Shown: in pieces, positions 7,987 to 23,035 of the stretch
Numbering within the stretch: the stretch's first letter is position 1
Layout of the letters: every line of letters begins with the position of its first letter
DNA from: a virus
Strand: one strand, 5' to 3'
DNA length: 27,770 nt
IMG/VR virus record: IMGVR_UViG_3300042868_004482
Span: 1-27,770 of that record
Notes under the pieces: model-generated
Seen by the model: only the letters and a program-made list of their open reading frames with translations
Database searches by the model: none
Told to the model about the DNA's origin: nothing
Made by a program: the position numbers and the translations under genes

Positions 7987-9618
7987 ATGCCAACAATAAA
8001 CGCGGGAAGCCGCGCAATAGTTACAGTTCAAGACGGTCAAGCCATTTGGGTGACAGCTACGGGCAATGCTCGCTACACCATTGGGCTACCTGTCCTATCC
8101 GCATCAACATCTATCCCGCGCAACCAAGAAACGCGCATTGGCTACTTAGGCACCACGGCGAATGTTGAGCTTATTTGTGAGAGTGGCACGCTTAGTTATC
8201 AAGACTCGCCTTCGGTGCTTGTGCCGCTTGATGCTGGTAGCTCCATTCAGGAGGTTGCTACTAATGTTAACTCGCTTAAGGACAACATTGGAGCGGTTCA
8301 AAAACTACCTCAAAGCGGCGAGCCGCCAGCGCCAAACTTTGCTGTTTACCCTGAAGCGAACAGCATTGACCCAAACACGCAAGGCTCAAGTATTTGGGGT
8401 GTCGGCTGGACTGTTTTTCCTAACAAAATAGGCGCAGTAGCAAAGCCGCTTGGGCCTGACGGAACAAACGCCGCTGAATGGCAAATCGACACAGGTTACG
8501 CTGCTGCAACTTTAAATGATGCGTCTGTTGCCACCATAACTGGCGGCTATGACCACATCAACAATCAGATTGCAGGCACTATTTCTGGCGGCGGTCATAA
8601 TTACATCCAATATAACAGCGAAGGCCACTCATTGATTGCTGGTGGCTCTTACAATTGGATTGAGGCTGGCAGGGCTACTATTGTGGCAGGCACTAACAAC
8701 AGAGTGTCTGGCGATATTTACAACACAATAGGCGGCGGCTTTACAAACAAGATTTTAGCGGGTGGTCACAACTTAATTGCAGGTGGTGAGTTTAACACCA
8801 TCAATAATCCGCTAAACAAGTATGTTTATGCGTTCGGTCGAAACATCAGCGTAACTGGCACAAGCAAAGACACAACAATATCTGGTCGCGCTCACACAGT
8901 TGCAAACGATGAAGGCTCGGCGATTGTTGGCGGTCAAGGTCACGATTTAAGCAGCACGCTCAAATGCGCCGCGCTTGGCGGAAATGAAATTGATTTAACA
9001 AGCGCCCAATTTTCTGGCGTGCTTGGCGGCGACGACATAACAATGACAGGCTCGCTGTATAGCGCATCTGTCGGCGGTCGTGTCAATGTGCAGACTGGGC
9101 GCAGCTCTTTCATGGCTTGCGCAGAAGAATCGAACGATAATGGCGCAAGAGGTCTTTTTACTGGCCGAAAAGCGCAGGGGCTTGGTGCTCAATTCCAAAT
9201 TACTATCGGGTGCAACCACCCGACTGTTGGCGTCACCTCTCAATCAATGAAGGTTGCGCAAGGCGTGCAGACTACTGGCGCAAACTTGAACGCACCAACT
9301 GAGCAGATGATCACCGTAGGAAATACTGGTCTTACTGTAATTTCAGGCAATGTTTATGTAATTGCAAGAAACATCACGGACAACAAGACGGCTGGATATA
9401 CGGTCAACTTTGTTGGGCAGTGGGACGGCACAACTTATTTCCTGAACGGCGGTACTGCTGACCTAGCCATGAGCGTTATCTACGCAGACGCAACAAGCAA
9501 CATCACAGCACCAACTTTAGCGTTTAGCGCTGGTCAGCTTCGGGTTAGATTCGGTGGCACAGCGTCAAAGACGGTTAATTGGTCTGCTGTTATTGATTGC
9601 TCAGTTATGAAGTTTTAA
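7987..9618 (+). CDS. repeat-rich trimeric fibre, possible head or collar fibre
   Basis: 543 residues with GGGG upstream of ATG 7987. The N-terminal 90 residues form a predicted beta domain (INAGSRAIVTVQDGQAIW) that may be the virion anchor. Residues about 180-370 hold short repeats of GG-x-x-N-x-I type (ISGGGHNYI, IAGGSYNWI, IGGGFTNKI, IAGGEFNTI), the signature of a beta-roll or solenoid like YadA-type adhesin heads. The C-terminal 150 residues look like a terminal beta domain. Its position between gp4 and gp10 homologues is not that of a P22 gene, suggesting an insertion. Head fibre, collar appendage or secondary receptor-binding protein are all possible. Confidence 0.75.
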   Translation: MPTINAGSRAIVTVQDGQAIWVTATGNARYTIGLPVLSASTSIPRNQETRIGYLGTTANVELICESGTLSYQDSPSVLVPLDAGSSIQEVATNVNSLKDNIGAVQKLPQSGEPPAPNFAVYPEANSIDPNTQGSSIWGVGWTVFPNKIGAVAKPLGPDGTNAAEWQIDTGYAAATLNDASVATITGGYDHINNQIAGTISGGGHNYIQYNSEGHSLIAGGSYNWIEAGRATIVAGTNNRVSGDIYNTIGGGFTNKILAGGHNLIAGGEFNTINNPLNKYVYAFGRNISVTGTSKDTTISGRAHTVANDEGSAIVGGQGHDLSSTLKCAALGGNEIDLTSAQFSGVLGGDDITMTGSLYSASVGGRVNVQTGRSSFMACAEESNDNGARGLFTGRKAQGLGAQFQITIGCNHPTVGVTSQSMKVAQGVQTTGANLNAPTEQMITVGNTGLTVISGNVYVIARNITDNKTAGYTVNFVGQWDGTTYFLNGGTADLAMSVIYADATSNITAPTLAFSAGQLRVRFGGTASKTVNWSAVIDCSVMKF

Positions 9619-9635
9619 AGGCTTCCAACCAACAC

Positions 9636-9664
9636 TTGCCAATCCCAACCATCTAGGCTAGGAT
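9636..9664 (+). promoter_or_regulatory. sigma70-type promoter for the intergenic RNA
   Basis: TTGCCA (9636-9641, 5 of 6 consensus) and TAGGAT (9659-9664, 4 of 6) are 17 bp apart. The expected start, 7 nt after the -10, is about 9671, the first base of a perfect hairpin. CAATCC (9640-9645) and GGATTG (9661-9666) followed by TTTT could also act as a weak terminator for the fibre gene, overlapping the promoter. Confidence 0.5.
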
Positions 9665-9670
9665 TGTTTT

Positions 9671-9887
9671 ATCAGAAGGGGTTCTGATGCAACTTACCAC
9701 GCTTGGCCACAATGGCAGATAACACGACCTAGAGCAGCAGACTCCATCTGCTTTTGTGCCTAACGTGTTTGAAATTGTGGCAGTCATAGGTTTACGGCTT
9801 GTCCGGTTTCCCTATTTCCGCAAGTGGCTGATACTTGCGACGACGAATCAGCGAGAGATTGCCACCTTAGCGGGTGGCTTTTTCTTT
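9671..9887 (+). ncRNA. candidate structured noncoding RNA with an H-type pseudoknot
   Basis: The gene-free interval contains these perfect complements. Hairpin ATCAGAA/TTCTGAT (9671-9688, GGGG loop). GCCACAAT (9706-9713) with ATTGTGGC (9774-9781), enclosing AACACG (9721-9726) with CGTGTT (9764-9769), enclosing AGCAGA (9736-9741) with TCTGCT (9747-9752). ATAGG (9786-9790) with CCTAT (9811-9815) around CGG/CCG. A pseudoknot: stem 1 CGCAAG (9819-9824)/CTTGCG (9834-9839), and loop bases GCTGAT (9827-9832) pairing with ATCAGC (9847-9852). A terminator follows. I recognise no known RNA family. Caution: a frame broken by TAA 9720 is otherwise open from ATG 9687 to 9905, so a decayed gene or an 11-codon leader peptide (9687-9722) is an alternative. 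Confidence 0.55.
9861..9887 (+). terminator. strong intrinsic terminator ending the intergenic RNA
   Basis: GCCACC (9861-9866) pairs with GGTGGC (9873-9878) around a 6-nt loop, followed by TTTTTCTTTT. Its 5' arm (TGCCAC 9860-9865) can alternatively pair with GTGGCA at 9777-9782, so terminator formation could be conditional. Confidence 0.85.
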
Positions 9888-9930
9888 TGTGAGAAGCTAA
9901 ACTAAAAATCCCAACGACAGGAGCAAACAC

Positions 9931-10005
9931 ATGGCATCACCAACCCAGAAGCCGCGCCCGCCAAAAGACGGAAAGCCAGAACCAACCAAGAAAGGCAAGA
10001 AGTGA
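9931..10005 (+). CDS. basic proline/lysine-rich peptide, 24 aa
   Basis: ATG 9931 is preceded by ACAGGAGC, a near-perfect ribosome-binding site. The peptide starts MASPTQKPRPPKDGKPEP and ends TKKGKK, is strongly basic and has no hydrophobic residue beyond Ala. Its stop (10003-10005) overlaps the GTG start of the membrane protein at 10002 (GTGA), so it may couple translation of that gene, bind nucleic acid, or simply act as a leader. The strong start signal and the overlap are the evidence for expression. Confidence 0.6.
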   Translation: MASPTQKPRPPKDGKPEPTKKGKK

Positions 10006-10433
10006 ACACTATTGATGCGGTGCTGCTATTTTTGTGGTGCCTGCTGATTTTAAGAAACACAGCGGCTTTATTGCCGCTTTTTATACTGTCACTTGATATT
10101 TTTATGATAAATATTTTTGATACGGATTTCCCACGCTATTGTGTAATAGCATTAGTTTACCTCGAGGCCGCCAAGTTAAATATACATATACCCGCAAAAC
10201 TACGCTATGCTTTTTTAAGCTTCGCGTGCCTTTATTGGGTATCGGCTTTCGATGAAATGCTTTACAATCATGTGGATACATATCAAGGGCATTTTTACGC
10301 TGTCATGCCTTACCTAGTGATAGCACTGAACGCCTACATTGCCGCGGTGCTTCTATTGGATGGAGGGCGTACACTTGTTGGATTTCTTGGCAGATGGCGC
10401 AGCTCTGTTATTAATCGCATTACTTGGTTATAA
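10002..10433 (+). CDS. multi-span membrane protein, 143 aa
   Basis: Starts at GTG 10002 in a GTGA overlap with the 24-residue peptide. Hydrophobic segments lie at about residues 5-38 (IDAVLLFLWCLLILRN then LLPLFILSLDIFMI), 45-60, 66-82 and 98-127, suggesting four or more transmembrane helices, and the protein ends basic (FLGRWRSSVINRITWL). No family is recognised. Multi-span membrane proteins are unusual inside a P22-type virion cluster. A role in envelope modification, exclusion or lysis timing is possible but unproven. Confidence 0.7.
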   Translation: MNTIDAVLLFLWCLLILRNTAALLPLFILSLDIFMINIFDTDFPRYCVIALVYLEAAKLNIHIPAKLRYAFLSFACLYWVSAFDEMLYNHVDTYQGHFYAVMPYLVIALNAYIAAVLLLDGGRTLVGFLGRWRSSVINRITWL

Positions 10434-10530
10434 TTCGTTTACCAAGGTCAGAAACATAGTCAAACAGAATGATCAGCAGAAACGACTTAGCGAACGCAAT
10501 AACAGAGTACAGTCAAACTCTGACAAGTAA
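10375..10530 (+). CDS. small membrane protein with basic coiled tail, 51 aa
   Basis: The best start is TTG 10375, seven nt after GGAGGG (10362-10367); ATG 10360 in the same frame would add five residues. One transmembrane helix (LADGAALLLIALLGYNSF) is followed by a charged helical tail (KVRNIVKQNDQQKRLSERNN). It overlaps the genes on both sides in other frames. The arrangement of one span plus a soluble helix recalls spanin- or holin-accessory proteins, but no family can be named. Confidence 0.55.
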   Translation: MLDFLADGAALLLIALLGYNSFTKVRNIVKQNDQQKRLSERNNRVQSNSDK

Positions 10531-10726
10531 ATTCATAGCCGTTGCTGGTGGCACTTCTGCCATATCGCATACTCCAGCAGGCGACTACATTAGAAGCGCT
10601 GTTGAATGGTGGCAAGGGTGGCCGTGGATGGAAACATTATCCTATGTTGCGATTGTGCTGTTAATTATTGAGCGAGGTTTTATTGTGTGGGCGTGGTATC
10701 GCAAACACAAAAGAGGTGAGATTTAA
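10469..10726 (+). CDS. small membrane protein, possible second holin, 85 aa
   Basis: ATG 10469 lies inside the preceding gene, and its stop overlaps the gp10 start (TAATG at 10724-10728). Residues 8-38 are mildly amphipathic, and a strong transmembrane helix lies at about 55-74 (LSYVAIVLLIIERGFIVWAW), ending in a basic tail (YRKHKRGEI). Size and tail charge fit a holin-like protein. However, the lysis cassette at 21855 already has a better holin, so this is only a suggestion. Confidence 0.6.
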   Translation: MISRNDLANAITEYSQTLTSKFIAVAGGTSAISHTPAGDYIRSAVEWWQGWPWMETLSYVAIVLLIIERGFIVWAWYRKHKRGEI

Positions 10727-22298: not shown

Positions 22299-22539
22299 TA
22301 AGATGTTTAGCTTTATCTGGTCGCAGCCAATACACGTAACGCTGCGTCAGATGAGGATTGTGCCAGTGGGGTTAATCATAAGCTCTCAATTGCTCCTGTG
22401 GGAGATTGTGCGAAGCCTTAAAGCACTAGATGCCACTCAAGCAGCAATGGCCTTTGGCGCTATCGCAGCGGCTTTAATTGCGGCAATCTGGAAAGGCGTA
22501 GACTCATTGCACAGGAGTAATATAAAAGATGATAACTAG
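22285..22539 (+). CDS. holin, two transmembrane helices
   Basis: 84 residues between endolysin and Rz. Two hydrophobic helices, about residues 26-43 (VPVGLIISSQLLLWEIV) and 53-69 (AAMAFGAIAAALIAAIW), and a charged C-terminal tail (RSNIKDDN) fit a class II holin. It would permeabilise the inner membrane and release the endolysin. No strong ribosome-binding site is seen, which suggests coupling to endolysin translation through the 14-bp overlap. Confidence 0.78.
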   Translation: MDAFNKMFSFIWSQPIHVTLRQMRIVPVGLIISSQLLLWEIVRSLKALDATQAAMAFGAIAAALIAAIWKGVDSLHRSNIKDDN

Positions 22540-23035
22540 AGTTCAAGTTAGAGTTTTAATTTCTGTTTTGTGCATATTATTCTCGGCTTATGCTGGTCAC
22601 TACATAACAAACAGTTATTGGAATGAGCGGTGGGCTGATAGAGATAGCGCAGACGCAAAAGCACAAACGCAGATATACGCCGAAGCGCACGAGAAACAAC
22701 AGAAACTTAATGCGGAGTTGCAGCATGCTTATCAAATCGCAAAAGATATGCAAGACAAGTTCGAATCTGATCGCATTGCTGCTGCTGACACTAGCAAGCG
22801 GCTGCGCGACGAAATTGCCAGATACAAAGCCAGTGCAAGTAATCATTCCTCCACTATCAGCATCAGCGCAAACGCCGCAACCGATAGACTTGTGCTCGTC
22901 AACGTGCTTGAGCGGGCTGACGCAGCAGCGGGAGATTTGGCTGATTATGCTGACAGAAACCGACAAGCAGTGATAAACTGTAACAACGAATATCAAGCCT
23001 TGCGGGATAACTATGCCAAGCAAACTAAGAGATAA
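22529..23035 (+). CDS. Rz: i-spanin (Rz-like)
   Basis: 168 residues with an N-terminal transmembrane anchor (about 7-25, VRVLISVLCILFSAYAGHYI) and a long charged helical periplasmic domain (KQQKLNAELQHAYQIAKDM onward), the architecture of Rz. The o-spanin gene is fully nested in the +1 frame, confirming the assignment. Rz and Rz1 bridge the periplasm and fuse inner and outer membranes at lysis. It overlaps the holin gene by 11 bp. Confidence 0.88.
   Translation: MITRVQVRVLISVLCILFSAYAGHYITNSYWNERWADRDSADAKAQTQIYAEAHEKQQKLNAELQHAYQIAKDMQDKFESDRIAAADTSKRLRDEIARYKASASNHSSTISISANAATDRLVLVNVLERADAAAGDLADYADRNRQAVINCNNEYQALRDNYAKQTKR
22725..22973 (+). CDS. Rz1: o-spanin lipoprotein (Rz1-like), nested in Rz
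   Basis: ATG 22725 follows GGAG (22714-22717) at 7-nt spacing; the in-frame upstream starts lack this. The signal peptide has a basic start (MLIKSQKICK), hydrophobic core and lipobox LASGC, with the lipidated Cys at residue 27. The mature part is Pro/Ser-rich (KPVQVIIPPLSASAQTPQP), typical of Rz1. 82 residues in all, entirely inside Rz. Confidence 0.9.
   Translation: MLIKSQKICKTSSNLIALLLLTLASGCATKLPDTKPVQVIIPPLSASAQTPQPIDLCSSTCLSGLTQQREIWLIMLTETDKQ

Follow-up and report, generated by a model that had tools for sequence, protein, structure and literature searches.

A Conserved, Pseudoknotted RNA Probably Encoded by a Free-Standing Gene among the Late Genes of a P22-Like Phage

The Locus and Its Neighbouring Genes

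The window, that is, the whole stretch of DNA analysed here, is a 27,770-base virus record (IMGVR_UViG_3300042868_004482) from a short-tailed, P22-like phage whose genes include those for a large terminase, a P22-like portal, an Ad3 adaptor, Hc3 and an ejection protein. All features described below lie on its plus strand unless otherwise indicated. Between the stop codon of a fibre-like structural gene (7987-9618) and the start of a mini-ORF at 9931 there is a gap of 312 bp devoid of any plausible protein. Such a gap between the fibre and tail genes had already been noticed in a previous reading of the bare letters (hereafter, the sequence-only reading). The fibre-like gene, which has no match in PHROGs, is named from its position and sequence only.

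The 24-aa mini-ORF (9931-10005; MASPTQKPRPPKDGKPEPTKKGKK) has the Shine-Dalgarno sequence GACAGGAG and overlaps the start of the next gene. It is followed by three small membrane-protein genes (10002-10433, 10339-10530 and 10469-10726). The lysis genes of the phage form a set of their own, which includes an Rz-like spanin (22529-23035). The tail protein at 18445-20295 matches PF08949 (PRD1 spike protein P5, C-terminal domain) barely above the cut-off (25.8 bits vs 25), and the minus-strand segment 25697-26254 gives a weak, sub-threshold match to PF02767 (DNA polymerase III beta sliding clamp; E 0.0035).

Homologues in Other Viral Genomes

The gap contains an RNA with five homologues in IMG/VR viral contigs, which were scanned with short exact RNA patterns, the candidates being scored by a covariance model. 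Four copies are full length (L119, L130, L131 and L146) and the fifth, L197, is cut by the contig end. The E values of the full copies range from 2e-64 to 5e-108, and L146 was detected with a model built without it. The conserved core spans 201 nt (9690-9890), and its ungapped identity to the window is 99% in L130, 92% in L119, 90.5% in L131 and 81% in L146.

The genes around this core differ between the phages that keep it. The TerL genes of the window and L119 are 69% identical at the nucleotide level, and L130, L131 and L146 have another capsid type than the window phage. The window and L130 are 98.5% identical over 203 nt of the RNA, and beyond that almost nothing aligns, the exceptions being 32 nt ahead of the mini-ORF and 52 nt at the promoter. 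The copies also contain mosaic parts: the 5′ part of L130 resembles L119 and its tip resembles the window.

The 143-aa membrane protein of the window (10002-10433) has relatives in L119, L130 and L131 that are 26-33% identical (E 1e-7 to 6e-12) and lie downstream of the RNA; in these three carriers a cargo gene sits between the RNA and the membrane-protein gene. The cargo family is fast evolving (131-291 aa, beginning MKTLDDVI) and adjoins the RNA on the minus strands (L131:863-1735, L119:5450-6256 and L130:1928-2320). Its distant relatives in Alishewanella and Klebsiella phages give a weak hint of a gammaproteobacterial host. Sets of two or three small membrane proteins, as at 10002-10726, recur downstream of the RNA in relatives, and an 88-aa member of the L119 set matches phrog_13738 (membrane protein, moron/host takeover class). 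Mini-ORFs of 21-24 aa (window 9931-10005 and L146:2382-2447), lysine- and proline-rich and with a good Shine-Dalgarno sequence, directly precede the membrane-protein genes; their character is conserved more than their letters.

L146 contains a second, partial copy of the RNA (about L146:2296-2342), comprising the end of the pseudoknot strand and the terminator. Its gene order is RNA, 103-aa cargo gene, RNA 3′ remnant, 21-aa ORF and membrane genes; thus, the counterpart of the window mini-ORF stands directly after the remnant. This order suggests that cargo enters beside the RNA by recombination. The arrangement of the window, in which the RNA is directly followed by the mini-ORF and the membrane genes, would then be the older one.

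At the sensitivity used, no RNA homologue was found in cultured phages (blastn of three versions against 50,697 phages) or in plasmids (blastn of one version against 72,556 plasmids), where the matches were terminators or noise only. Nor did the covariance model detect a homologue in the cellular genomes sampled (369 of Gammaproteobacteria and 398 of Pseudomonadota): all matches were weak, at 20-29 bits, and the four of these whose alignments were inspected were mainly terminator-based. The RNA is absent from 100 P22-like and reference loci, and protein searches with gp10, coat and fibre found no close kin.

Transcription Signals

A sigma-70-like promoter, TTGCCA (9636-9641)-N17-TAGGAT (9659-9664), is followed by a conserved TGTTTT. 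The pattern TTGNCR-N17-TANNNT lies upstream of all six copies, with a spacing of 17 in each, and GGCTAGGATTGTTTT in this region is identical in the window, L119, L130 and L146. The predicted start, around 9671, coincides with the beginning of the first hairpin of the RNA in the window and, by inspection, in L131 and L197. At the other end, an intrinsic terminator (9861-9887) consists of GCCACCU-UAGC-GGGUGGC (9861-9867/9872-9878) and a T-run; two of its pairs are changed on both sides in L146, and the block conserved with the window stops just after the T-run. The sequence-only reading had proposed this promoter, a 7-bp hairpin at the predicted start (9671-9677/9682-9688) and this GC-rich terminator, and it had placed them exactly. 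Promoter and terminator patterns alone would prove nothing, and the promoter pattern by itself is at chance level (five sites in the region vs 3.8 expected); what is shown is that the positions of both signals are conserved among the carriers. Judging from these conserved signals, the transcript would start at about 9671, end at 9887 and measure about 215 nt in the window and, owing to longer arms, about 290-410 nt in relatives.

The signals around the RNA point to an insulated unit. The terminator GGCGGCTTCGGTCGCC-T6 stands directly before the RNA promoter in L131 and L146, and a new promoter follows the RNA terminator directly in L119, L130, L131 and L146. Most carriers therefore have an insulated RNA, on one side or on both. 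For the window itself, no promoter was recognised from the RNA terminator to the genes for the 24-aa peptide and the membrane proteins; transcription of 9931-10726 may thus depend on read-through, and here the RNA might still serve as a leader.

Fold and Covariation

The segment 9671-9887 folds with -74.6 kcal/mol, compared with -61.3 ± 4.3 for dinucleotide shuffles (z -3.1), and none of the 200 shuffles was as stable. The RNA begins at the predicted +1 with the hairpin AUCAGAA-GGGG-UUCUGAU (9671-9688). This hairpin is peripheral, and longer or other hairpins substitute for it in relatives: the 5′ domain is a single hairpin in the window, L131 and L197, and in L119, L130 and L146 it can be as long as about 200 nt. 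Its stem covaries (GCAGC/GCUGC in L131 vs GCAAC/GUUGC in L197).

The P1 arm (9706-9781) is composed of the helices 9706-9713/9774-9781, 9721-9726/9764-9769, 9730-9732/9760-9762 and 9734-9736/9757-9759 and a tip stem, 9737-9741/9747-9751. The first two, of 8 and 6 bp, are exactly those of the sequence-only reading. Its 6-bp tip helix (9736-9741/9747-9752) stands as a conserved 5-bp stem but loses the pair 9736/9752 in L119 and L131, and 9734-9736/9757-9759 pairs in all copies. The tip stem changes from GCAGA/UCUGC to GCGGU/ACCGC in L119 and L131 (A-U to G-C and A-U to U-A), and the loop CUCCA that it closes is invariant. P1 is 8 nt longer in some relatives. Its outer helix is the same in every copy, so that folding supports it and covariation is neutral. 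A putative kissing contact of the CUCCA loop with a G-rich loop of the 5′ domain (GGGG or AGGAG) is possible.

The P2 arm (9786-9815) is formed by 9786-9790/9811-9815 and 9795-9797/9803-9805, with an A-U to G-C change in L146; its loop is replaced by a hairpin extension of about 45 nt in L119 and L131. It is followed by an H-type pseudoknot (9819-9852), in which S1 has 7 bp (9819-9825/9833-9839), L1 has 1 nt, S2 has 6 bp (9827-9832/9847-9852) and L3 has 7 nt. A stem of 7 bp, a first loop of 1 nt, a second stem of 6 bp and a last loop of 7 nt are ordinary geometry for an H-type pseudoknot. In L146 four S1 pairs and two S2 pairs are changed on both sides; S2, for instance, changes from GCUGAU/AUCAGC to GUUGCU/AGCAAC with its pairing fully kept. 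Thus, the pseudoknot surmised in the sequence-only reading is located and covaries in both stems. A multiloop helix of the MFE fold (9700-9703/9850-9853) was dropped, because it is incompatible with the pseudoknot and does not survive in L146.

Over the six sequences, 99.3% of the cells of 55 pairs are paired and 11 pairs are changed on both sides (2.9 in shuffles, none of 500 reaching 11), although the cells are not independent events, since the alignment comprises five distinct full-length sequences plus L197 and most double changes come from L146. When partners were slid, 28-44% of cells paired, with at most one doubly changed pair. An unsupervised scan for helices conserved in the five full copies ranked S1, the terminator, S2 and the P1 tip at the top, in that order. 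Two of the tests that the sequence-only reading had proposed, folding against shuffled controls and a search for compensatory changes in homologues, favour the helices, and at the level of sequence the fold and its conservation are demonstrated.

The covariation also bears on a DNA-level explanation, in which the block, as a recombination junction or a mobile repeat, has hairpins that count at the level of the DNA and spreads without RNA function. Such an element would account for a block common to phages with unrelated capsid genes, for the mosaic parts and for the second copy of the RNA 3′ end that flanks the cargo gene in L146, but it leaves unexplained that a promoter and a terminator are present in the right order and strand, that S2 of the pseudoknot covaries and that the T-run marks the end of what the copies share with the window. 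We consider it very unlikely.

The protein-coding reading was rejected, since no reading frame survives in the homologues. An intact homologous frame across 9687-9905, which the sequence-only reading had set against an RNA gene, is absent from L119, L130, L131 and L146 owing to stops or indels; the frame-breaking indels are of 1, 8 and 42/43 nt. The comparison of the copies thus demonstrates the non-coding character of the locus as well.

A Leader or a Free RNA

The sequence-only reading had left the choice between a free RNA and a conditional leader of the membrane-protein genes. As a leader (attenuator or riboswitch) of the mini-ORF and these genes, the RNA would switch by pairing 9777-9785 (GUGGCAGUC) with 9857-9865 (GAUUGCCAC), which breaks the terminator and is exclusive with P1. 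No other possible helix in 9619-9900 scores as high as this 9-bp one, which would rival P1 as well as the terminator; however, none of its pairs is changed on both sides, L131 and L146 break it, and L119 does so in part. The helix scan found no notable conserved antiterminator that competes with the terminator in all copies, and it is such an antiterminator, exclusive with the terminator, that characterizes terminator-type riboswitches and attenuators. A leader of this type would also share its promoter with the downstream gene that it regulates, and here the carriers differ. In the window and after the L146 remnant, the mini-ORF and the membrane genes come directly behind the terminator with no promoter recognised between them, but in L119, L130, L131 and L146 the RNA is followed by other genes with a promoter of their own. 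The leader is thus weakened by the want of a conserved antiterminator and by the separate downstream promoter in four carriers, and we regard it as improbable; the RNA gene is better read as free-standing than as a leader or riboswitch.

Proposed Mode of Action

The explanation that we favour, and consider likely, is that a structured, non-coding phage RNA has a free-standing gene here, which is carried in a moron-like manner among late genes, and that this RNA would act in trans through its fold. Host RNA polymerase would start around 9671 from the sigma-70-type promoter and stop at the terminator (9861-9887). The 5′ hairpin probably protects the 5′ end, and the remainder would fold into the long P1 arm, the P2 arm and the H-type pseudoknot. 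We infer that the folded RNA acts in trans on a partner, which its invariant core most likely binds and which may be a protein of the host or of the phage, or the ribosome, since the core tolerates little change and the arm tips vary freely. Binding of this kind is more likely than base pairing, because the invariance is spread over the junctions and the pseudoknot. The locus itself probably behaves as a self-contained unit, lodged among late genes and moved by recombination.

As a special case of the free RNA, the P1 loop CUCCA, complementary to a GGAG Shine-Dalgarno sequence, could make it an antisense or Shine-Dalgarno-targeting small RNA. The loop is invariant while the tip stem beneath it changes by compensation, and the mini-ORF downstream of the RNA does use GACAGGAG, but the loop has only 5 nt and most of the invariant positions lie outside it. 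Besides, when both strands of the rest of the window and of the L131 phage are compared with the RNA, the longest matching runs reach 11-12 nt and point to no consistent target. Such targeting appears unlikely.

Returning to the structured RNA that acts through its core, a bolder version is offered tentatively, as something that may well not hold: the family might represent a new class of RNA machine, in which a small pseudoknotted RNA, spread by recombination from one virion type to another, unrelated one, captures a host factor during infection or decoys it, be it RNA polymerase, the ribosome, a nuclease or a defence protein. In genomes packed as tightly as those of phages, an autonomous RNA gene with a core kept at 81-99% across differing virion genes probably pays its way.

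Comparison with Known RNAs and Phage Elements

None of the 4227 families of Rfam 15 (including 6S, RNase P, SRP, tmRNA, pRNA, GOLLD, ROOL, OLE, riboswitches and self-cleaving ribozymes) matched at or above the gathering threshold in scans of three family members; the sub-threshold matches were weak and mostly on the terminator region. The claim of a new structured RNA gene of no known class is supported by these scans and by the 11 doubly changed pairs. The RNA family is new and belongs to no known family; its broad kind, the free-standing structured phage RNA exemplified by GOLLD and ROOL, is already known.

Like the phi29 pRNA, which joins the portal to a gp16-type packaging ATPase, the window RNA is small and structured and is encoded by a short-tailed phage. 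However, it does not match the pRNA model, its phage has a P22-like portal and the usual large terminase, and the RNA family also occurs with another capsid type. We found no support for a role in packaging.

P22 sar, lambda OOP and PreS are likewise discrete phage-encoded small RNAs, to which the excerpt of PMC12197685 considered here ascribes regulatory roles. Phage small RNAs described in that excerpt act mainly by base pairing, several of them with Hfq, and for none of them does it mention a conserved pseudoknotted core such as that of the window RNA. Of the features of Hfq-dependent trans-acting small RNAs, which bind Hfq and pair with mRNAs, the promoter and the terminator with its T-run are seen in the window RNA.

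Morons have the layout promoter-gene-terminator. The window locus resembles phage morons, which are autonomously expressed accessory loci (PMC7067206), in being an autonomous transcription unit inserted between late genes and mosaic in relatives; judged by its sequence signals, it has its own promoter and terminator and is variably present. It differs from them in that its product is an RNA without a surviving reading frame. Lysogenic expression, which goes with morons, is not implied here, because no tyrosine integrase (PF00589) was found in the six carrier records, which are possibly fragments.

The window RNA shares with GOLLD and ROOL (PMC12286853) that it is phage-encoded, elaborately structured and of unknown function. 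These RNAs are of about 600-800 nt or more, often lie near tRNA islands and have their own Rfam models, whereas the window RNA has about 215 nt, matches neither model and lies in a window without tRNA. Structured phage RNAs are easily missed, since annotation looks for proteins. The family described here bears on the role of those without known function, and it offers a compact, covariation-supported fold of about 215 nt that is open to probing, structure solution and deletion in one phage.
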